Shown here in pieces: positions 18,706-43,352 of a stretch of DNA of 64,000 nucleotides. Under the pieces are notes generated by a model. It made no database searches. It was not told the DNA's origin and saw only the letters and a program-made list of their open reading frames with translations. The translations under genes and the position numbers were made by a program. Numbering within the stretch: position 1 is the stretch's first letter; every line of letters starts with the position of its first letter. This DNA is from Aurantiochytrium sp. KH105 (taxonomy: Eukaryota; Sar; Bigyra; Thraustochytrida; Thraustochytriidae): positions 1-64,000 of the forward strand of contig BGKB01000093.1 of NCBI GenBank assembly GCA_003116975.1, written 5' to 3'.

Positions 18706-18930
18706 GCTGCCATGATGGGCGGGACTTGCGTCCCTTTTTCGTGGCTTGCCAAATGATGCGACCTCGATCAATACGATCGATCACCCTTCCGAGTCATGGA
18801 TGAGTGAGTGAGTCTCACATCGTTGTCAGAGCAAGTGGACGTCATCGAAGAACAAAGGCAAAAGAAGAACTTGCCGCGGCCGGCGCAGCCGCCAGCAGGA
18901 CGCCAGTTCCCCGACGCGGCGCGCGGAGCG

Positions 18931-18942
18931 ATGGCGAGCGTA

Positions 18943-18984
<42 letters not shown>

Positions 18985-21090
18985 GGCAGCTTCGTGGTGG
19001 AGGACGCCCAGCGTCGCTTGGTGGACCTGCAGACGCTCTGTCAACAAAATGAGGGCGCGGGACGCGCTCTCGCAGCGCTCGTGCAGCGACAGCAAGGCGC
19101 AGCGCAGGGCCGCGACCCGCGCAAGCTCGGTGCGGACGCAGACCAGCTGCAGCAGCAAGTGAAAAAGTGCGAGGAAATGATGAACAAACTGCGTGCAGAT
19201 GATGCCGATTTTCTCGCCCGCGTCAAGGCAGGGGCCGCGACGCCCGGAAGCAAGGCCTTCAAGGCGAAAAAGCTCAAAAGCGATTACGATCGAAGGCTTC
19301 AGGTCGCGGCGAGCTTGCGAGCCACAGACCAAAGCGTCAAACGCGCCAAGCTGGTGCTCGCCGAGCTCAGAAAACAGCAACGCCTTGCCGAGGCATCTGC
19401 CGCAAAATCCGAAGCAGAGGCTTCCGGGGCGCAGAGCGCGGATCGCGAGGCCACGCGCGCCCAACTTGAGACCCGCCAAGCGGCATATGCTCAGCGCAAA
19501 GCCTCCTCTAACCGCGGCGCTCAATACAATGGTATCGGCAACAACAACAACTCGCAACAACAACTGCTTCTCCAGCAGGAGCAGCAGCAAACGTACGCTC
19601 TCCGCGAGTACGACGAACAAAGCACCACCCAGAGCGAGCAGAGCGCGCTGCGCGAGGTGGCTCGTAGCGCCCAGCTCGTGGAAGAAATGGCCACCGAAGT
19701 GGGTTCTCTCCTCGAGGTCCAGACGGACGACGTGAACAGGCTCGAAGAAAACACAGACGACTCCGTCGCGCGTACCATGGAGGGCGTGCACGAGCTGAGC
19801 CGTGCGCGCCGCCGTCAGGCTAGCACAGGCGCCGCCAAAGCCACGTTTGGCACCGCTACGGTGGGAGGCCTTGTCGGTATTCTTGGCGGGCCCGTGGGCA
19901 TCGTTATTGGCGCTGCCGCAGGCGGTGTCGTGGGCATGGTCGCTGGCAAGGGTGTCGCGGCCGTCAAGCGAAGGTCCATCAACGCGGAGACGCGTCGCAT
20001 CAAGGCCTTGCTCTCGGCGCGCAAGCAGCGCACGGGGGAGTTCACTCTTCAGGTATACGCCTTTGAAGTCCAGCAGTGGTCGTACATGATGCGTAAATGG
20101 ATCCAGACCGAGCGCATGTGGACGGACGAGTTTGGCGAACCTGTACGCGGGGCGCACCCCGAGAAGGATACCAGCGCCGCTGAGGCCCGTCTGCAGCTTC
20201 TTGCCGAGGCCCGTGCTGACAGCAACAATCTCACACCCGAAGAAGAGGCAGAAATCGAAGCAGTGCACGAACGTGAAATTGCCTTTGATGTCGTCTGGTC
20301 CTGGGCGTCGCCAAAGTGGGATCTCGTGGTTGACAGGGCCAATACGGACTTGAGCGGCTGGGACTTTGCATCAAAGGCAACCGCCAACAACTGGTTTCCC
20401 GAGGCGCAACGCGGCTGCGTTGTGCGACGGCGACTCTGGGTACGCTATCTCACGGGCAAGCCTGGCACCTCGCCGGCGCATCAGGCTGCCGCCGAGAAAC
20501 TGGCGCGGGCCCGCGCAGTTCAAGAGGCTATGGACAATGATTCTGCGATCGCACCCGCCGATCGCGAGACCAAACAGCTCTGGAATGGTATTTATCGCAG
20601 CTCTGTGACAACCAACACAATTCTAAGCGAATCGTACGCTCGCGCAAATGAACAAGGTGAGCAAATTTCTCGCGCGGAGCGCAACGCAGCTCTTGTTGGC
20701 GACGCGGCAATGTACACGCAGCGCATCGATCGCGCTGCGAATTTAAGTGGCGCCCTCCGGAATTTCGTAACGTGGCGGCGTGGCCAGCTGCAAAATGTCG
20801 ATGCTGCCACGCAAGATCAGATTCTTCGCCGCGAGGTTGCCGACAAGCGCGAGGAACTTTTGCGTCAAGAAAAACAGCGGCAGGAGGAGCGCCGGCGTGC
20901 GCTGCGAGAGAATGGGACCGATTTCAGTCTTGAGGACGAAGCGGCTTCCAACTTTAGCGAAAATCTTCACATCGCTGGCCGCATGTCTTCTGAGCTCGAA
21001 ACGCAAAACCAGCAGCTCGAGCGCACGGCTGCGGCTGTAGAGAGGGGCAACGTCTCGGTGCTGAAGATTACGCGCAAGCTCAAATCATGA
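18931..21090 (+). CDS. Fused Qa + DysF + Qb/Qc SNARE protein (STX17/SNAP-29-like)
   Basis: 719 residues in one uninterrupted frame; earlier in-frame codons lack an ATG. An (Ala-Gly)n start is followed by a helical Habc-like region of the syntaxin 7 type (to about 190). Residues about 235-295 match a Qa-SNARE motif (LLEVQTDDVNRLEENTDD, zero-layer Gln in the EVQ). Residues about 303-343 form a Gly-zipper hydrophobic hairpin (VGGLVGILGGPVGIVIGAAAG) resembling the STX17 double-pass anchor. About 369-405 and 453-510 resemble DysF N and C segments (FEVQQWSYMMRKW..., then WDLVVDRANTDLSGWDF). About 553-612 match a SNAP-25/29 Qb motif (NEQGEQISRAERN) and 665-719 match Qc (SSELETQNQQLERTA). Together these supply all three Q helices. 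A role in autophagosome/lysosome fusion is inferred from STX17, SNAP29 and TECPR1 parallels. Confidence 0.85.
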
Positions 21091-28952: not shown

Positions 28953-29630
28953 GCTTGCTTTCTCAATTTCGTCTCGAATGCTCGCTTCTAGTCTTCTTTT
29001 TCAGCCCCGTCGAATACCTTATGCTCCCTTTCGCCCTTCCGCCCGTTCACCGACCTACTCCTTTTCAGGCCCCTCCACGCCGAGCACGTGCAGCCTCGAG
29101 GGGCCGTACCAGAGTGCTTTCGCCAGCGCTCTGCGCCGTGCAGCGACTCGCCTCCTCTCGCTCGTTTTCGTTCCCGCTCTCGCCCTCGCCGCCCTCGCCC
29201 TCGCGCGCGCCCTCGCCCTCGCGCGCGCGCCCGTCTGCACTCGCTCGCGCCCCCGAACCTCGTTTGCTTCTGCGATGCTCTCCTCCCTCCCGTTCACGAT
29301 GCAGGTGGCACGTGCGCCGTGAAAGAGAAAGTAATGAACTTCACAGTCAAGTACTAGGTAGTAGGCCTAGTAGGCCTATAGGCTATAAACAAGAAAGAAG
29401 TCATGAGTGACGCGTTCTCCAAGGAAGGTGTGCACTCGCTCTGCTGCACGTACAGAGAACGCGGGTGTGCGTTGAGCGAGCGCGAGCAAGCCACTGACTG
29501 CACTGCAGACACAAGACTGCTGGAGTAGCTCGAAGTCGTAGAGCAGGAGTCTGCGAACGTTCAAGACGTGCGGGCGCAGGCCATAGGCGCGCCGCGAGCA
29601 CGCCACCGCCGCGCCGAAGCACGAGGCGAG
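28953..29630. other. Divergent intergenic region
   Basis: Promoter region of the small membrane protein and the pseudo-receiver gene. Short CG-rich repeats near 29150-29260 open frames on both strands, without motifs. Contains two TAGGCCTA sites. Confidence 0.5.
29362..29378. promoter_or_regulatory. Two adjacent TAGGCCTA palindromes
   Basis: Copies at 29362-29369 and 29371-29378, one base apart, 253-269 bp upstream of the ATG at 29631. A TATAAA-like CTATAAAC follows at about 29383. Confidence 0.4.
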
Positions 29631-32600
29631 ATGGCGTCGTCCTCGACGCTGCCAAAAGGTCTGCTGCAAAAGACCTCCTCGTCGGCAACGCTACAGCAGG
29701 ACTGGGAGCGACGGAGAAAGCATCTCATCTTTGCCAACAGTGGCGGCGAGCTCGAAGATGATGACGAGAACGCCGAGGCGACTGCACAGACGTCAGCGCC
29801 ATTCGCTCGCGAAGTCGACGCTAGGGTCGAGCAAGATGGCCTTGATTGCACCAGCGAAAACGAAGAAAGAGAGCGGGGCGACCGAGGATCAAAAGATGAG
29901 AGTGCACGGCGCAGCGTATCGATGGAGCAACTACACTGCAATCAGATTGACAGGTACGCATCTGCTCCGAATGCACGAGAAAGACTCGTGCTCGTCTTCG
30001 ATGAAGACGAGTACGAAAGCAAGCATACCGTTGAGGCGCTCGAAAGCCTCCAATTCTCCGTCGTGTCCGTCTCTGAGCCAGAACAGGCCCTTCGCGTTTT
30101 CCAAGAACGCCGCGCAAACTTTGACGTCCTCGTGCTCGGTCTGCGCGGACCCGGATACGAGACTCTTCGATTTCTTGAAGCGGTGGGGCCGGTTAAAATG
30201 CCTGTGCTTCTGACTCTTTCTGCAGAATCCTGCGATCTGAGCGAGCTCTGTCCCGAAGAGTCTCCTGACATGGAGGTCGGTTCCCCAATGTCGTCAGTGG
30301 ATAATCCATATAGCTCGCTCAGGTCTCTGAAAATGTCCATGTCTTTCATGAATAAACGGGAAAACACGAGTGAGCTCGTTGCGCGCGCCATCGAACTCGG
30401 TGCCAGCGCATACATGGTGAAACCTGTGAAGCGCGAGCCTCTGGACAGACGTCTGCGCGATCTGATGAAGCGCTTCCACAGCGCGGCGCAAGAGTTCAAG
30501 CGCATGGTTGACTTTAACGATCCAGACTATATCACGAAGCAAACGCGACAGCTCATGCTCGAGTCTCATAAACATGACGGCCGCAAGTCTGTCGGCGGCT
30601 TTGTTGTCAACGGAATGCCCATCAAGGCTCCACGTGCGGTATCGAGTGTGGACACGCAAGGCATCGACGGCCTCAGTAAAGCTGGCAGTAAATTTGGTCT
30701 TGCATTGAAGCGCACGAAGGCAGCACACCAAGCACGGGTCCGCGTCGAGCGTGCAAGTGAGCTGCGGCGACTGGAATCTAATTTTGCCGTGCACACGCGC
30801 GATCCTGGCGTCCGAGGTCATCGCAAAAGTGTCCGGCGCTACAGCAGCAAACCAGCAAAGCCAAAACAAAGAGCGACCTTTGTTCAACGTGTGATCCAAA
30901 CCGTAAACGAAGGGTCCCCTGGACGCGAGGAAACAAAAGAAGGTTCAAGTGACCCGCAACAGGCAAAACCGAGCTCAAGGCCCCGTGCGAGGACTGCGCT
31001 GCGCGCATCCCTCGATAGTTCAGACGCAAAGCTGGTCATGTCAGTGATTGCCGGCATGGCGCAAAAGAAAACCCGTCTGGAAGGCGCCCTGCCACTATTG
31101 GTGAATTTCCGCGGTCAGGTGTCTCATATTCAGCTTCCATGGGAAAAGAAGCGCCTAGAAAACATTGAAAAAGAGTATGGAAGCGTGCCGCACGTCAGAG
31201 CTCGCGATATTTTGCAAAGTGACTTTCGCGAGCATGTCCCCAGGTCGAAAAGCGCGACCAGCGGACAGCGGTTTCTCCAAAAGGGCTACGAGCTCAAACT
31301 CAAAGGGGACCTTCCAGGGGCCATTCGGCTCTATACGCGCGCCACACTGGCCGAAAAACGCTACTCGGCAGCTCACCTGTGCCGAGGCGTTGCCTATCAC
31401 ATGCTCGGGGACGACGAGTCAGCAATGCAGGACTTTACACAATGCTTGCGCATTGACCCCAAGAGCACAAGCGCTCGATTCAATCGCGCCCTTATTTTTT
31501 CCAACGAACATCGCGACCATGCCGCAATTCGAGAGCTCGACGAAGCAACTGCTCTCGATAAGACAGATGAGGGCTTGATTGCCTTTCGCGCGTTTATTCG
31601 GCGTCGATGTGGCGATTTTGCGCGCGCTCAAGACGATTACAAGGCCGCAGCTGATCTAGCTGCCGTACAGCTGCGACGTCGTAAGCAAGAGCGTGAAGCG
31701 CGCGCAAATAAGCGAAAAGAGCGTCGTCGAGAGAGACGTCGGCAGCTACGCGGTCGCGCTGCAAGCGCCACAGGGTTGGGGTCTGGCTCTGAAGATTCCG
31801 ACTCGAATTCATCCGATAGCGACGAGCCAGAAAGTCCCAAGAATCCAGAGGAAGACGCTCTCCGCGCCACGGCGTCCATGTCGGAAGCCGCCCAGCGCGA
31901 CGGACTCAAGCAAAAGAAAAAGTGGGACACAAACTACGATGGCCGTGTTGATCTCGCCGAGTTCACCTCGGCAACTCAGCGTTGCGACAGCGTTTACGCG
32001 GAGATTTTTCAAAAGCGTTCTGATATCGAGATTGCGTGCAGTAAGGCACCAGGACTGCGTACAGCGGACGACCTCAAGATGATTTTCCATGCATGTCGCG
32101 AGATCACCCTGTTCCGTAAGATGCCGCAGCGTTATATTCGTGAGCTAGCGCGCGAGATTCGGCTGGCGAGCGTCCTCCCCGGAGACTATGTGATTCAGCA
32201 GGGCGCGTCGGCGTACAATTTCTTTGCGATTCTCGAGGGCGAGGTCCACGTCACGGTGGACCTGAGTGAGGTCGAATCGGAACATGTCATTCATCGCATG
32301 TATCATGGCGAATGCTTTGGGGAGAATGCGCTCATCAATGGCTCGAAGCGGGAGGTCAACATCGTTGTCCCTTCCGATGGCGAGCCTGCTCTCATCTTCA
32401 TCATATCGAAAGCCCTCTTCCAGCAAACACAACTTGAAGAGACAATCACGGCAGATCGCAATCGGACGTCCTCGATACTTCGCAACTGTCAGATCTTCGA
32501 TACCATGGAGGAAGCCGCCTTTGAGGACTTGTGCAAAATTTCCCGCACCGTCGAGTTGGAACACAACTCGGTAGTGCTTCGGCAGGGCGAAGCCACGTCA

Positions 32601-33086
32601 CGATTTTGCGTTTTGGTGAGCGGCATTTGCCGCACGCTGCGCTACAGCGACGCTGGCGCCGACACGCGAAAGCGTATCCGCAATTTGGAGCACGCCTGCG
32701 AGCAATTCGAGATGAGCTTTGCAGTGCATCACCAGAACAAGCAGGACGCTCGCACGATGATGCGCGTTGCGCGGGTCAAGGAGCAGCACGAGGAGCGACT
32801 GCGAGAGATTGAAAGCCTCAAGGTCAGATTGGCGGCACTGGAGAGTGGCGAAGTCAAGCTACCTCGAACCAAGCTTATCGACACGGGTACGATATACCCG
32901 GGCAACGTCTTTGGCGAGGCCGCACTACTCGATCCTTATTACGGCCGAGAGGAGTACACTGTCGTCGCGGACACATACGTGACGCTGATTTGCATACACA
33001 AAGAGCAACTTCAGGTATGCAAGCATGTGGAGGCTTTGCTCGAGGGTCTCCGTCTCAAGAAAAACGTCGGCAACGACGCAAGCTAA
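29631..33086 (+). CDS. Pseudo-receiver/TPR/EF-hand/tandem cyclic-nucleotide-binding protein
   Basis: 1151 residues with an unusual order of domains. Residues about 116-290 resemble a response-regulator receiver: LVLVFDEDEYES gives the acidic pair and AYMVKPVKREPL gives the conserved Lys-Pro, but the phospho-acceptor position (DVLVLGLRGPG) has Gly instead of Asp. Residues about 543-690 are TPR repeats (GYELKLKGDLPGAIRLYTRA...). Residues 765-776 form an EF-hand loop, DTNYDGRVDLAE, with liganding positions intact. About 826-940 and 952-1133 are two CNBD folds (GDYVIQQGASAYNFFAILEGEVHVTV ... GECFGENALI; GNVFGEAALLDP). No kinase or channel domain is present, so it could be a regulatory or scaffold protein integrating Ca2+ and cyclic nucleotide; this is inference. 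Confidence 0.85.
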   Translation: MASSSTLPKGLLQKTSSSATLQQDWERRRKHLIFANSGGELEDDDENAEATAQTSAPFAREVDARVEQDGLDCTSENEERERGDRGSKDESARRSVSMEQLHCNQIDRYASAPNARERLVLVFDEDEYESKHTVEALESLQFSVVSVSEPEQALRVFQERRANFDVLVLGLRGPGYETLRFLEAVGPVKMPVLLTLSAESCDLSELCPEESPDMEVGSPMSSVDNPYSSLRSLKMSMSFMNKRENTSELVARAIELGASAYMVKPVKREPLDRRLRDLMKRFHSAAQEFKRMVDFNDPDYITKQTRQLMLESHKHDGRKSVGGFVVNGMPIKAPRAVSSVDTQGIDGLSKAGSKFGLALKRTKAAHQARVRVERASELRRLESNFAVHTRDPGVRGHRKSVRRYSSKPAKPKQRATFVQRVIQTVNEGSPGREETKEGSSDPQQAKPSSRPRARTALRASLDSSDAKLVMSVIAGMAQKKTRLEGALPLLVNFRGQVSHIQLPWEKKRLENIEKEYGSVPHVRARDILQSDFREHVPRSKSATSGQRFLQKGYELKLKGDLPGAIRLYTRATLAEKRYSAAHLCRGVAYHMLGDDESAMQDFTQCLRIDPKSTSARFNRALIFSNEHRDHAAIRELDEATALDKTDEGLIAFRAFIRRRCGDFARAQDDYKAAADLAAVQLRRRKQEREARANKRKERRRERRRQLRGRAASATGLGSGSEDSDSNSSDSDEPESPKNPEEDALRATASMSEAAQRDGLKQKKKWDTNYDGRVDLAEFTSATQRCDSVYAEIFQKRSDIEIACSKAPGLRTADDLKMIFHACREITLFRKMPQRYIRELAREIRLASVLPGDYVIQQGASAYNFFAILEGEVHVTVDLSEVESEHVIHRMYHGECFGENALINGSKREVNIVVPSDGEPALIFIISKALFQQTQLEETITADRNRTSSILRNCQIFDTMEEAAFEDLCKISRTVELEHNSVVLRQGEATSRFCVLVSGICRTLRYSDAGADTRKRIRNLEHACEQFEMSFAVHHQNKQDARTMMRVARVKEQHEERLREIESLKVRLAALESGEVKLPRTKLIDTGTIYPGNVFGEAALLDPYYGREEYTVVADTYVTLICIHKEQLQVCKHVEALLEGLRLKKNVGNDAS

Positions 33087-34740: not shown

Positions 34741-37700
34741 TTAGAATGTGAGCCTTGGGTCGTCGTCCTCTTCCTCTTCCTCGTCTTCCTCGTCGTCATC
34801 CTCTGCGAGCACCGCAGCGCTGCCCGTGTTAGGGGACATTTGTGGAATCGTTGACGAGTAAATGGGGCCCGAAGAGGGCGAGAACTGAAGGGGAGTGGTT
34901 TCGTTGACCGAAGAGTAGTCGTCCTCATCCGCATCAAAGCTGGCCGTGTAGTTGAGCGCCGTCACCGGAGCCAGCTGAGCGGGCGCCATGTCATGACGCG
35001 TTACAGCACCAGACTCGACGCCTCGACCCTTTTTGCCTAGCAATCGACGACGCACAAAATGTCGCACGCCACGCACCATGCCATCAAAAGAGCTTCCGTC
35101 GCCTTCCCGAATCTCGAAAAGGAGTAAAAGCACGGCAGCACCAGAGTACGCAAAGGCATACTTGATGGGGAAATCACCCTCAGTCTTGGCAGGAAAGCCA
35201 TACGAGGAGGACACGCCGTGCTCGTCGAGCTCAAACGAGTGAACGGCGCCCACAAAGGAAAGCGCGGCACCCACGAGCATCCATGCGGCTGCGTTGAAGA
35301 ACTTGCGATCGATGATCTCTACGAGTGCGCTTGCAAGAAAAATAGAGGAAAGCAGATAGCCTCGCGACAGCGCAATGAGACCATACACGTAGACTCCATT
35401 GGCCTCGAGATTGCGCATGACCTTGTCAAAGGGCACGTGCACCTCGGAGAGACCCATGCTCGGGTTACTGAGAACCGTGCCGCAGGCCGGGACTGTGGCT
35501 TGGATGTACTGCATGCCCCAGGAAGCGAGTGCGGGCAAAAGACCCAGCGCCACAGCAGCTGCGTGGGAACCTGAGCTGCTCGACTCCATCTGGTAGTCGT
35601 CGTCGCGATCAAAGGCCTGCGCCGTGACGACGATGCCAATCCACATGAGAATGCCAACACCAGCCACCTCGGGAACCACAGTCATGACAGCCGAGGTTCC
35701 ATTGAACAAACCAAGGAGCAAGACCGCCACTGCGCTAATGTAACTGTAGCCGCCAGAAGCCCCCATTGATTTGAAAGCGCCGTGGCCAATGTAAACGCAC
35801 GTGGGAAAGGGGCAGCCCATGAGCGAGCCAAGGATGGTCATTCCTGCGTCCAAAGCCAAGCCTTGTCGGATGCTGTACGAGTCGCCGACGGCCTCGGAGG
35901 CCTCAAAGCATGAAAGGTTCGTCACAATGTTGACAATGAGCATTGGCACAACTACCGTAATGTAGGGCCATGTCCGCGAATCGAGGAGAGCGTGGAACAC
36001 GTCGGGCAGCGAGCTCGAGGGAAGGTAAAAGCCCGTCCCACTGTGCAGGGATCCGTCGGCAGCGGGATTTTGCTCCGAAGCTGGGTCCATGAGCTGCAGA
36101 TCAAAGGCACGAGCCACAGCAACAATGATGCTGCCCAGCACGAGCGCGACAAGTCCTGCGGGAACCTTGTATGGCAGCTGCACGTTGGATCCGTAACAAG
36201 TGAGAATGACGACCATGGGAATGATGGCCACGGCCGGGTTGGAAAAGATCTGCACGGTAAAGGTCATTGCAATGAAGGTGAGCGAGACGCCAGCCATGGC
36301 CGACATCATGGCCGCGCGCGGCACGACTTTACGAATGTGCTCGACGAGGAAGAGCGCCGGGAGCTCAAGAACGCCCAGAACAAAGCAGCAGGCAAGGCCG
36401 GTGTGGTACGCAAGCTCAGCGTCGCCAGTCTTTTCGAAAACAGGTGCCATGATGAGCATGGTGAAGGCGAAAAAGAGAACCGTGTTGATGCCGTGAGGGA
36501 GCGCAGTAAAGTCTTCGCCCTCGGCCCGCCTTGCCTTGAGGTCAGCCCACGCGCCAAAGACAATGTTGCTCAGGAAAACAGTCAAGGTCGCGCCAGGGAC
36601 AATCTTGCCCACAACCAAACTTTGCTCCACGCCGACCCGGATGCGCATCGAACTCAAGAGGTTGAGAAGGAGGATCAGCGTGTTGAGAAACTGGGCAAAA
36701 CCAGCGTCAAGGTTGCCGTAGGTGAGGACGCCCCCAAAGAGCTCGCGAAACTGTGCCAGCTTTGAGCCAAGTGGCATACGAGCGAAGAAGCTATTTTTGT
36801 GGCGCATCATCTCCTGGCGGCGCTCAAAGAGGAACTGCGTCGAGGGCGACCGCGGCACGTAGTAGTGCTCGTTCTCGGGCGCTTCTTCCGTGTCCGGGGA
36901 CCCTACGCGATCCGAGAGAATGGCGACGGTGTGTGACCAGCCCGCAGCAACGAAGGCCACATCGCGACCGAAGCACTTCACGCGCAGAGGCGAACTTTGG
37001 TCAGAGAAAGTGGTCCCGGCGCCCAGCTGGCCATCGTCATTGCGGCCCCAAGCAAACATGCGCTTGGCGCCATCGCTATCGCGCTGCACAACGGCAATGG
37101 TGTGGCGGCCACCGCCACAGACGTGGAGGACTGAGCTCGGGAGCGAGGTCACGAGCATGGGCTCGAGCGCCATGCTCGCTCCCTGTGTCGTGACACCAAG
37201 CTGGCCGTACTGGTTCCAGCCAAAGGCAAAAAGGTTCGAAAACTCCTCGTCTTCATTTGGTTCGAACGAAGTCAGCACGGCGAGACTGTGGCGGTATCCG
37301 CAAGCAATCTGGGTGATGCGGACTTTTTGTGTAGCGCGGAGCGGGGCCGGAAAGTAGACTGGAGTTGGTTCGGAGCGAGCCTTGCGCTCGCCTGTGCCGA
37401 GCTGACCGTAAGTTCCCCAGCCAAAGGCAAAGAGCTGATTGCACATGTATCGCGGAACGGTGATTTCTGCGTCGACATTCGTATCATCGACAAGGACAAG
37501 AGTGTGGCGGGAACCGCAAGCCACATCCGTGACGTCGGAGAGCGAAGGTAGTCTGCGTGGTTCCAGGACGGCTTCCCCAGCGGCAAGTCCGGTGGCGCCA
37601 TCGTCATCATCTCCCCAAGAGTACAGGTACCCGGCCCTGGAGATGGCGACTGAATGTACTTTCCCGCAGGCAATTTTCGTCACAAGCGTCTCATGTTCGC

Positions 37701-38323
37701 GAAAGAACGAGATCTCGGTGGGCGTTTTGCATGGGTCGCGGTGGCCGAGACCAAGTTGGCCCTCATCATTTCTGCATAAAGGCAATGAAACGAAATAAGT
37801 CAAGAAAAAGGAGACCGACGTCAGGTCTGATCGTTAGTTTTCCGTGTGCGCGGCAAATGACCATATGTGCTGCAAGGTGCTTTTTGTGCGCACCAAAAAG
37901 CGGTGTCAATCTGGGGAGAGATCGATTGGCGATGTAAAGAAAAGCACTGCAGCACATGATGGGTGGTTCATCAACAACAACTTACCTTCCCCACGCGTAC
38001 ACGCGTCCCTCTGCTGAGAGCGCTAGCGTATGTGCGCCACGCGCAGCAATGCTCACGATGCGCACGGACTCGAGCGTCTGGACGAGGCGGGGCACCGTGG
38101 CGAGGGCACCGCCTTTGCTGAGGCCAAGCTGATTGTCATCGCCACGGCCCCAAGAGTACACATTTCCCTCCTTGGAGAGGGCGACCGTGTAGCGGCTTCC
38201 GCATACGACGCTGACAACGACGCTTCCCTCGAGCGCAGTGACGACTTGGGGCACCACGCGAAGCTGGGTGTCGCCGAGTCCCAGCTGATGATTCTGATTC
38301 CAGCCAAAGGCAACGGTCGTCAT
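34741..38323 (-). CDS. RCC1-repeat domain fused to xanthine/uracil-type permease, two exons
   Basis: Exon 1 is 37986-38323 and exon 2 is 34741-37771. The 214-nt intron (GTAAGT donor, TTTATGCAG acceptor) splits an RCC1 repeat, and joining restores VYAWGRNDEGQLGLG. The product is 1122 residues. About 1-410 are RCC1 blades (FGWNQNHQLGLGDTQ..., VYSWGRGDDNQLGL, LYSWGDDDDGATGL, FAFGWGTYGQLGTGE). About 450-920 match a multi-pass NCS2-like xanthine/uracil/vitamin C permease (DFTALPHGINTVLFFAF, RAAMMSAMAGVSLTFIAM, GCPFPTCVYIGH). Two further hydrophobic helices and an acidic tail (EDDDEEDEEEEEDDD) follow. Exon 2 has no stop between the domains, so the fusion is genuine if the assembly is. The propeller may be a cytosolic regulator of transport; the substrate is unknown. 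Confidence 0.88.
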
Positions 38324-40581: not shown

Positions 40582-41919
40582 CTAGTGCGGCGCGCCAGTG
40601 AACAAGCCATACACAGAGACAATAAGCTCGAGGGTAATTAGAACGATAATCATCCACTCGAGGCGCTCCCCCTTGTGGGAGTGAATAAGCTCGACGAGGA
40701 AGCGCATGTTGCTCTGCAGATAAGAAGCCTTCATCTCCAACACCGAGAAGCGGTCGCTGATTTCAAACTCCTCGCGAAGGCCTTCCCAGATCACACCATA
40801 CTTGGGAAACCTCCACGCCTCCTTCATTCGCGTGCGATCAAGCACACCGAGCTTGACGATGACCTCGCTCAGAACCGAGTTGCTCTCGCTCAACATGCGA
40901 TAGAGGAGCTTTGTCCGCGACGGCGTGTAGGAATGCGCACTAAGAGTTTCTTCCGAATTGGCGGACTCAAAACTCTGCAGCATGCCGTCCACGACGCGCT
41001 CAAAGTGGCCCAACGCCACGGACTGGCCCAAAACGGATGCAATGACACGAATATTGTTCATGTCCATCTTTTGCACGACGAGTCGATTTGACTTGAAGGT
41101 GCTCCAAGACTCTTGAGTGGGGTCCACCTCCACCATGAAGTCGTCCGCGCCTGCGGCGCCGCCCGTGTCCAGATATCCGACACAAAACTGTTCCGCCTGG
41201 GTAATGCTCTCTGTCTGTAGGACCTCATCGCAATCAAAAAAGACCACAGCGCCATAGTCAAAGAATACAGCGCAAGGGTGGCCGCCTTCGCTCTTGCTTA
41301 GAATATTGCGAGCCTTTCCAAAGGTCGCCTTTACAGCCGGGACCTCGACGTTGCTTCCGCTTTGGTCGCCCTCGGCCTTTGCTTTGGCCTCGCTGGTTCG
41401 TTTCGGGCCAAAGGGACCGAGACCGAGCTTGGCCCGGCTTCCGGGCGCTGGCTCCGACGGAGGCGGCGGTGGGGCAGGGGGAGCCCCACGCGCAGGAACG
41501 CCGGAATCGTCTGCATCAGGTTCATCTCGCTGATGTCGACGCGATCGGTGCGAGCTTTCGCCATGGTCGTTCTCTGCCGCTGCTTGCGCAAAGGGCATGC
41601 GGCCGTGCGGAAAGGAGACAATCAAGCTGTCCACCTCGAGCCAATTTCGTTGCCTGCCGTACATTTTCTGAAACATAGGAACAACATTGATCTTTTTCGC
41701 AATGTAGTACGCACGCACATTGCCCGCGCCCTCTGCGCGTGGCACCACGAAGCGTTTGGGGTATTGCCCGCTGTCGCTGCTGCTGCTCCCGCTGCTGCTC
41801 CCCGACTCCGTGTACGCCTCGTACGACTCCAGGGCCGTGGAGAACGACCGCGTCATGCTCGCGTTCGGTCGCCGGCGCGAGGCCAGCCTCCCCGCGCCCT
41901 GCACCGCCGCGAGCCACAT
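40582..41919 (-). CDS. RMND1/Sif2 family (DUF155) mitochondrial inner-membrane protein
   Basis: 445 residues. RMND1 relatives anchor mitochondrial ribosomes near sites of mRNA maturation and are needed for mitochondrial translation. An Arg/Ala-rich presequence (MWLAAVQGAGRLASRRRP) is followed by a variable Ser/Pro linker with a Pro-rich stretch near 155-165. The DUF155 core contains AVFFDYGAVVFFDCDE, then KMDMNNIRVIASVLGQSVALGHFE, and the C-terminal helices ISDRFSVLEMKASYLQ and LEWMIIVLITLELIVSVYGL; the last is the family's single C-terminal membrane anchor. The start was chosen because the long upstream in-frame extension is low-complexity Arg/Ser. Confidence 0.88.
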   Translation of the reverse strand: MWLAAVQGAGRLASRRRPNASMTRSFSTALESYEAYTESGSSSGSSSSDSGQYPKRFVVPRAEGAGNVRAYYIAKKINVVPMFQKMYGRQRNWLEVDSLIVSFPHGRMPFAQAAAENDHGESSHRSRRHQRDEPDADDSGVPARGAPPAPPPPPSEPAPGSRAKLGLGPFGPKRTSEAKAKAEGDQSGSNVEVPAVKATFGKARNILSKSEGGHPCAVFFDYGAVVFFDCDEVLQTESITQAEQFCVGYLDTGGAAGADDFMVEVDPTQESWSTFKSNRLVVQKMDMNNIRVIASVLGQSVALGHFERVVDGMLQSFESANSEETLSAHSYTPSRTKLLYRMLSESNSVLSEVIVKLGVLDRTRMKEAWRFPKYGVIWEGLREEFEISDRFSVLEMKASYLQSNMRFLVELIHSHKGERLEWMIIVLITLELIVSVYGLFTGAPH

Positions 41920-42596
41920 CCTGCGTGCGTGTGGCTTGCGTGCCTGCGTCTCTGGTCCTCCGCTCGCGTGAAGTCGGGGGGCCACTGCTGGTCGCCGCTC
42001 TTCAAAGTATGGTTGTACTCCTCCTAAAGCTAGCGACTGCCGCCGTGCACGGCTGCGAGCCGCTCGAGCCCGATCGTCTCGCCCGGCCTCGCGCTCTCGC
42101 GCTCTCGCCTCGCCAGCCCGCGCGCCGCGCCGCAGTGCCGCCCGAGAAGCGGTCTGTCTGCTCGCTCGTCTGCGACTCTGTCTCCGTCTGTCTGCTTGTT
42201 GCAAGCAAGGCACAGACAGCAGTGTCAGCTCGATATGGCTGCGCAACGCAAAATCAGGGATCTGCGCAACGCGAACGGAAGAAGATTTTGCCTTGATTTG
42301 CTCCTGCATCGCACTGCAAGCACAGGGAGGAAGGGAGGGAAAGGAAAAGAAAGAACCCAGCGAAGCATTTTCCGCAGGCAGATCGCAAACCGTTGAGCTG
42401 GAGCCTGCCTGCCTGCGCGAGGAGCGAGACGTCTGCGGACAGCTGTCGCGCGCGACGCGAAGGCGCCGGGGCCGACGCCCTGCCCGAAGCGATTGGAGCG
42501 AGACGAATCGAGACGAAACAAACGGAAAGGAAAAGGAAAGGGACGGAGAAGGAGAACGAAGAGGAGAGGAGAGGAGAGAAATCTCAGGAGCGGAAA
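41920..42596. other. Divergent intergenic region
   Basis: Promoters and leaders of the RMND1-like and UPRT genes. AGGAGAG-rich sequence lies immediately upstream of UPRT. No gene was recognised. Confidence 0.5.
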
Positions 42597-43352
42597 ATGG
42601 CGGAAGACGCAGCCGCGGCGACAACGGCCAACACCATGGACGAGGAAGTGCCCGTACTGGACCTTGAGACGCTCAAGAGCAAGGTGCACTTGCTGGAACA
42701 CCCCGTGGCCCGACATAAGATGACTCAGCTGCGACGCAAAGAGACATCAAGCAAGCATTTTCGCGAGTTGATGCGGGAACTGACCATGTACCTCGGATAC
42801 GAGGCAACCAAGGACCTTACCACCAAGCCTTGCGTTGTGCAAACGCCGCAGGCCAAGCACACCGGGGCAGAGCTTGACATGGACGTGGGCCTTGTCCCAG
42901 TGCTTCGCTCGGGCCTCGGCATGGTCGATGCAATGCTCGAGATTCTCACCACCGCCCAGGTGCTGCACATTGGCATGTACAAGGGCAAAAACTCCTTGGT
43001 ATCAACCCTGTACTACAATCGCCTTCCGCGCGAATGCACCATCAACCGTGCCATCATCTTGGAGCCCGTGATTGCTACTGCGGGCACCAGCAGCGCTGTC
43101 GTGCAGATCCTCAAGGAGTGGGGTGTCGAGGACATTCACGTCATGTCTGTCGTCGGTTCGCGCGCTGGGCTGAGCAGCCTTCTTGACGCGCACCCGAGCG
43201 TCAAGATTCACATCGCCGCCATTGACGACAACCTCTCCGAGGACGGTGAGATTATTCCAGGTATTGGCGATGTTGGTGACCGACTCTTTGACACCCGCGA
43301 CGTTGCCGCCGGCACGATCCCTCCCTCCCCAAAGCGCCAGCGTAAGGAATGA
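42597..43352 (+). CDS. Uracil phosphoribosyltransferase-like protein
   Basis: 251 residues. UPRT makes UMP from uracil and PRPP in pyrimidine salvage. The fold is clear: LEHPVARHKMTQLRRKETSSKHFRELMRELT, VGLVPVLRSGLGMVDAML, GDVGDRLFDT near the C-terminus (uracil-binding loop). The PRPP-binding signature is altered: canonical UPRTs have DPMLATGGS, whereas here it reads EPVIATAGTS, with Asp to Glu and the first Gly to Ala. Activity is therefore uncertain, as in human UPRT, which also has a modified motif. The short N-terminus (MAEDAAAATTANTMDEE) shows no targeting signal. Confidence 0.88.
   Translation: MAEDAAAATTANTMDEEVPVLDLETLKSKVHLLEHPVARHKMTQLRRKETSSKHFRELMRELTMYLGYEATKDLTTKPCVVQTPQAKHTGAELDMDVGLVPVLRSGLGMVDAMLEILTTAQVLHIGMYKGKNSLVSTLYYNRLPRECTINRAIILEPVIATAGTSSAVVQILKEWGVEDIHVMSVVGSRAGLSSLLDAHPSVKIHIAAIDDNLSEDGEIIPGIGDVGDRLFDTRDVAAGTIPPSPKRQRKE

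Follow-up and report, generated by a model that had tools for sequence, protein, structure and literature searches.

Can a single natural polypeptide carry the three Q helices of a SNARE complex, and does the open frame at 18931-21090 encode such a protein? A published SNARE classification recognises one- and two-motif SNAREs only. The frame lies in a window of 64,000 nucleotides, the whole stretch of DNA analysed here, and had been described in a first-pass annotation as encoding a single chain that bears three Q-SNARE motifs, with a Gly-zipper hairpin in its interior and a DysF domain, a description that the single frame, the profile searches and the conserved layout bear out. Its parts are listed below, with the main evidence in brackets.

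18931..21090, + strand: whole three-motif SNARE/DysF protein, open frame of 719 aa (codon bias versus second copy; seven relatives)
18979..19395, + strand: N-terminal helical domain, residues 17-155, predicted three-helix bundle, Habc-like
19648..19806, + strand: Qa SNARE motif, residues 240-292, zero-layer Gln264 at 19720-19722 (profiles, classifiers, layers; sub-threshold Pfam match, E 0.011)
19837..19971, + strand: Gly-zipper hydrophobic hairpin, residues 303-347, central GGP turn at 319-321, basic exit (conservation, AF2 break, STX17 likeness)
20041..20463, + strand: DysF domain, residues 371-511, interrupted by a helical insert (dysferlin/TECPR1 profile matches; invariant Trp)
20581..20739, + strand: second SNARE motif, best read as Qb, residues 551-603, zero-layer Gln575 at 20653-20655 (5buz_C, E 0.0029; layers, classifiers)
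20932..21087, + strand: third SNARE motif, Qc, residues 668-719, ending the protein, zero-layer Gln692 at 21004-21006 (SNAP-25, E 1.1e-4; layers, classifiers)

The frame runs uninterrupted for 719 codons and a stop, the closest upstream in-frame stop being at 18805. The genome searched (76 Mb, 367 contigs), in which many genes occur in pairs, holds a second copy of the gene at G000:C31:444897-447044 on the minus strand. The frame is intact in both copies, which differ by 49 substitutions over 2148 aligned bases (three at first, five at second and 41 at third codon positions) and by 18 gap columns, the protein length changing by one four-residue and one two-residue stretch. Since the substitutions are mostly third-position and the flanks diverge more than the frame (80/1410 upstream and 53/1465 downstream), 18931-21090 is a protein-coding frame under purifying selection, and a chance open frame is ruled out by the same third-position bias. 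A (GCGGGC)n repeat at about 18942-18990, coding for (AG)n near the N-terminus, shows a four-residue length difference between the two copies.

Other frames of the window deserve mention on their own account. A 1020-aa frame at 34741-37803 (-) carries N-terminal RCC1 repeats (E 3.3e-61) followed by a C-terminal part that looks by eye like a multi-pass transporter but is without a Pfam family match (best E 0.27), possibly making it an RCC1-transporter fusion. The single frame at 29568-33086 (+) combines a sub-threshold match to a response-regulator receiver with TPR repeats and two cyclic-nucleotide-binding stretches. Taken as open frames, a DUF155/RMND1-type one at 40582-42624 (-) and a uracil phosphoribosyltransferase one at 42393-43352 (+) have overlapping 5' ends, the true starts probably lying further in.

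Homologue searches among about 5.8 billion proteins, each word-limited so that scores were computed for only some 8,000 candidates with most words in common, retrieved seven different relatives (six in the first search, seven in each of the other two). By BLASTP these align with 85-97% of the query at identities of 39-68%; P0009, also retrieved (E 0.29, 5% coverage), was discarded as unrelated. P0005 originates from Mucochytrium quahogii (Labyrinthulomycetes, Thraustochytrida), P0008 is a complete MMETSP transcript ORF, P0002 lacks the N-terminus and P0003 bears the name of the dinoflagellate Durusdinium trenchii, possibly through thraustochytrid contamination; P0003 and P0005 are recorded as 't-SNARE coiled-coil homology domain-containing protein'. 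The succession of parts between the Qa and Qc motifs is identical in 8/8 members, i.e. the protein of the window and its seven relatives, and five blocks, corresponding to Qa, hairpin, DysF, Qb and Qc, are conserved. Mean pairwise identity amounts to 64% in the Qa motif, 76% in the hairpin, which is the best conserved block, 52% in DysF, 58% in the second motif and 51% in the third; it is 17-34% in the linkers and 31% in the N-terminal helical domain (P0002 excluded there). Given this layout in 8/8 proteins, with P0008 as a complete transcript ORF and MMETSP among the sources of P0005, two separate transcripts are unlikely, and the earlier claim of a single gene stands.

All three motifs have the makeup of Q-SNAREs, namely a heptad motif of about 53 residues in which hydrophobic layers flank a central Gln. 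The zero-layer Gln residues, already pointed out at first pass, proved invariant at each of the three positions in 8/8 members, and layer hydrophobicity is best in the SNARE register (Qa, 0/20,000; middle motif, p 0.003; Qc, 0/20,000). The Qa profile ranks registers 264, 575 and 692 highest among 668, whether it is built from general SNARE references or from the genome's own SNAREs only. An R profile built from the genome's SNAREs also peaks near the Qa motif, at register 267 (a score reached by 6/200 permutations), so such class profiles are not perfectly specific. When the family profile of each block was searched against 177,635 PDB sequences, a SNARE came out as the top match for each of the three motifs, at modest E-values for Qa and the middle motif, and the N-terminal helical domain of the same proteins, serving as control, returned no SNARE, and hence no syntaxin, among its 17 matches.

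Searches with the single sequence gave a sparser picture. No match of the protein to the Pfam SNARE family PF05739 exceeds the curated cut-off of 26.8 bits, a detection threshold and not a biological property; the Qa motif scores 16.2 bits (E 0.011) with this model, which, judging from its matches in the genome, starts just past the zero layer. Sub-threshold Pfam SNARE matches (E<=1) occur in 5/7 members, the best at E 0.005, and none falls anywhere in the Qbc half. The SNARE match anticipated for the two C-terminal motifs thus fails by single-sequence Pfam and is obtained with family profiles, whose top PDB matches are SNAREs. DUF5089 is matched by 3/8 C-terminal halves (best E 0.0052), and NCBIfam matches were set aside as unrelated.

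We regard the Qa and Qc assignments as strong, and the middle motif as SNARE-like with a Qb label that is only moderately supported. In the PDB search, 10 of the 11 matches of the Qa block are SNAREs, mostly syntaxin-1; the top one, a syntaxin-1, owes its E of 0.0045 to the sum of two weak stretches, and the second, a single stretch, has an i-E of 0.18. The motif is classed as Qa in 8/8 members with a larger reference set and in 7/8 with the genome's SNAREs only. The predicted three-helix bundle preceding it fits Habc without specificity, resembling many generic bundles, syntaxins among them; its top match by sequence, the 14-3-3 protein BMH1 (E 0.011), was taken as chance helix matching.

The Qa motif leads into the hydrophobic hairpin, where the most hydrophobic 19-residue stretch of the protein is found (mean 1.95) and whose GGP turn is present in 8/8 members. 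The AF2 model of the window's protein breaks the long Qa helix at 317-320 (helices 207-316 and 321-368), and that of P0005 shows helices at 169-257 and 277-315 with a short one at 270-273 in between, both at low confidence. Aligned with the hairpin of STX17, the segment scores 73, equalled by 1/2000 shuffles (0/2000 and 6/2000 for P0005 and P0008, respectively), shuffling being the sole control and a generic Gly-zipper a possible cause of the score. The STX17 hairpin comprises 44 residues in two segments followed by a C-tail; in human and nematode STX17 this tail is basic (PMC11864666). Such a hairpin would bring the chain back to the cytosol. Pfam matches to Gly-zipper-type families, C19orf12 in 7/7 scanned members and DUF456 in 6/7, were read as a matter of hairpin composition; the sub-threshold C19orf12 match, to another Gly-zipper membrane protein, covers residues 295-338 (about 19813-19944) and probably reflects composition, possibly a shared type of hairpin.

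The next block has the sequence signature of DysF. Its family profile matches dysferlin (4cah, E 1.1e-4) and TECPR1 (8p5p, E 0.014), dysferlin is matched by the single sequence as well (E 0.0077), and nine invariant Trp lie within residues 383-503. The DysF domains of TECPR1 and Pex30 are reported to bind sphingomyelin and phosphatidic acid, respectively. Neither a tectonin propeller nor a PH domain was matched by Pfam in 7/7 members (E<=1) or in the window's protein (E<=10). Elsewhere in the genome, a DysF/Pex24p-like segment (Pfam E 1.9e-12) occurs at G000:C88:28081-28242 (-) (L011), with a second copy at C59:26918-27082 (-) (L012), inside open frames of 3742 aa and 3760 aa, where its neighbour is a VPS13 adaptor-binding domain (E 8.5e-18), Pfam having been run on 1054 aa of L011; these frames may encode a VPS13-type protein with a DysF of its own.

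Structure prediction recovers the SNARE helices and the hairpin at low confidence, with no assembled bundle readable (pTM 0.28 for the window's protein, 0.29 for P0005). Foldseek searches with the model of the window's protein gave no match at E<=0.001, and the best 50 of 652 matches consist mainly of generic helical bundles, Sso1 and Sso2 included, with no DysF protein among them.

The best reading, and in our judgement a probable one, is a natural single-chain Q-SNARE, or 'Qabc', working as an acceptor t-SNARE with an STX17-like hairpin as its anchor. From its parts we infer topology, R-SNARE assembly, fusion activity, lipid binding and organelle as follows. A syntaxin-like half (helical N-terminal domain, Qa, hairpin) would be linked via DysF to a half of SNAP-25/29 type made up of Qb, a linker and Qc. 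Inserted in the cytosolic face of one membrane, the hairpin would let the chain re-emerge into the cytosol, thereby placing Qa, Qb and Qc on one side, where they could fold in parallel with a fixed 1:1:1 stoichiometry; this pre-joined three-helix acceptor and one R-SNARE on the opposite membrane would then form the four-helix bundle; the R-SNARE family has 11 places in the genome. The DysF domain, as in TECPR1 and Pex30, might bind lipid headgroups and either hold the Qbc half at a particular membrane or target the protein to it. As a first guess from the STX17 likeness, that membrane could belong to the autophagosome/endolysosome or to a lipid-droplet/ER contact. With confidence tipping just past even, we would further propose these proteins as a sixth architectural SNARE class, 'Qabc', of thraustochytrid-like protists, bringing three of the four fusion helices and their own DysF lipid sensor, so that a single R-SNARE would complete the fusion machine.

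The chief alternative is a non-fusogenic SNARE of regulatory function, whose three motifs would compete for or sequester partners, like tomosyn, amisyn and the i-SNAREs, or self-fold in an autoinhibited state, DysF and hairpin serving as a tether. It holds this place because polar residues or Gly occupy several C-terminal layers and because the genome keeps ordinary Q-SNAREs. The Qa layers +3 to +6 read Thr/Ser/Thr/Gly with few exceptions, layer +7 of the second motif is Asp, Asn, His or Glu in 8/8 members, and the Qc motif has mostly Asn at -4 and Gly at +4 in 8/8; the polar layers could weaken zippering. As for the conventional Q-SNAREs, PF05739 finds 14 places in the genome, forming seven pairs by score, and one locus per pair, read by eye, gave five Qa and two Qc proteins, each with an ordinary single C-terminal transmembrane segment and none of these seven with a hairpin; the Qb family PF12352 has 13 places. 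Nonetheless, the zero-layer Gln is kept in all three motifs and the remaining layers fit, and inhibitory SNAREs such as tomosyn and amisyn are not known to carry a comparable membrane anchor. A regulatory role is unlikely in our estimate, albeit the least so among the alternatives.

Considerably more doubtful is the idea that true SNARE character is confined to the Qa half, an STX17-like syntaxin with a DysF domain, the C-terminal half being a generic amphipathic coiled coil with a convergent SNARE look. The absence of a Pfam SNARE match from that half, the modest and short PDB matches of its motifs and the difficulty of classing the middle one would suit this explanation, but the last motif speaks against it: 25 of the 31 PDB matches of the Qc block contain SNARE sequence, the first 19 included, and are mostly SNAP-25, the top one reaching E 1.1e-4 over about 21 residues. 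Both classifiers call this motif Qc in 8/8 members, it stands at the C-terminus as in Qbc SNAREs, and its score is reached by 0/300 heptad-preserving permutations. Furthermore, the middle motif has a SNARE as its top profile match and the control helical block has none, while Q-N and Q-G are invariant at the zero layers of the second and third motifs. SNAP-25 has 121 residues between its zero layers and 32 after the last; here the corresponding values are 106-117 and 26-29 in 8/8 members, a SNAP-25-like spacing.

The nature of the middle motif raises a still less probable alternative, a second Qa-type helix in a Qa-Qa'-Qc chain that would need separate Qb and R partners or would dimerise. SNAREs account for 3/5 PDB matches of this block, the first two sharing one molecule name, and the top one, 5buz_C ('SNAP receptor-like protein', E 0.0029), is presumably Chaetomium Vam3, a Qa. 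A classifier built from the genome's SNAREs only prefers Qa in 5/8 members and Qb in 3/8, whereas the larger reference set (leave-one-out 40/40) gives Qb in 8/8. Permuted Qb profiles equal the motif's top score in 6/300 trials with the general references and in 20/200 with the genome's SNAREs. The Qb label of the first-pass annotation is only partly supported: the larger set agrees with it, the majority call of the genome's own SNAREs and the presumed identity of the top PDB match do not. Against a second Qa also stand the Qb-linker-Qc order and spacing, like those of SNAP-25, and the polar Thr/Ser at layers -4 and -2, which the first helix of SNAP-25 has as well. Finally, a gene-model artefact, in which STX17-like and SNAP29-like genes had been merged through a missed intron, stop or assembly error, would agree with conventional SNAREs being separate proteins but is scarcely credible and was rejected, given the fused order in 8/8 proteins (transcript ORF P0008 included), the two genomic copies and the third-position bias along the frame.

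Within the open-licence literature, no three-motif SNARE protein was found among the matches listed, and the terms 'Qabc-SNARE protein' and 'three (Q-)SNARE motifs', in the excerpts that contain them, refer to complexes of several proteins. A trypanosomatid survey that includes Phytophthora as representative of the stramenopile/SAR group reports that Qbc-type SNAREs cluster with SAR sequences and, in the passages concerned, mentions no triple (PMC5399786).

Three helices known elsewhere from two or three proteins are here apparently on one chain which, if the single-chain reading is true, would be the ready-made half of a fusion machine. With such a chain one variable would drop out, the meeting of Qa with Qbc in the 1:1:1 acceptor complex, long debated among biochemists, and the chain would test the need for SM proteins and tethers once the Q helices are pre-joined. 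It is also tempting to take the union of an STX17-like hairpin and a TECPR1-like DysF, neighbours in autophagosome-lysosome biology, as a gene-fusion hint that DysF lipid sensing is coupled to SNARE fusion.

Compared with known systems, the protein resembles STX17 in that the Qa motif runs directly into a long two-segment hairpin that is rich in Gly and has basic residues behind it, the hairpin sequences being alike in a pairwise comparison of the two. However, STX17 ends with its hairpin and a variable tail, whereas here the hairpin is internal (303-347 of 719) and is followed by DysF and two SNARE motifs; because of this internal position we do not file the protein as STX17. With SNAP-25 and SNAP-29 it shares two SNARE motifs with Q zero layers, a C-terminal Qc and a comparable linker and spacing, but its Qbc part is joined to Qa and a hairpin in 8/8 members, its middle motif is only moderately Qb-like, and its linker, residues 604-667, contains no Cys and therefore no SNAP-25-type palmitoylation site. 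TECPR1, dysferlin and Pex30 have in common with it a DysF domain with the Trp/Arg signature, which here sits between SNARE motifs in a protein without a propeller, PH or C2 domain by Pfam. Engineered single-chain t-SNARE constructs are comparable too, for example PDB 9y5f ('rv-SNARE/sc-t'), itself among the PDB matches of the middle motif (E 1.1), which, to judge from its molecule name, also places Q-SNARE helices on one chain; that one is a laboratory design, whereas the protein described here is a natural one.
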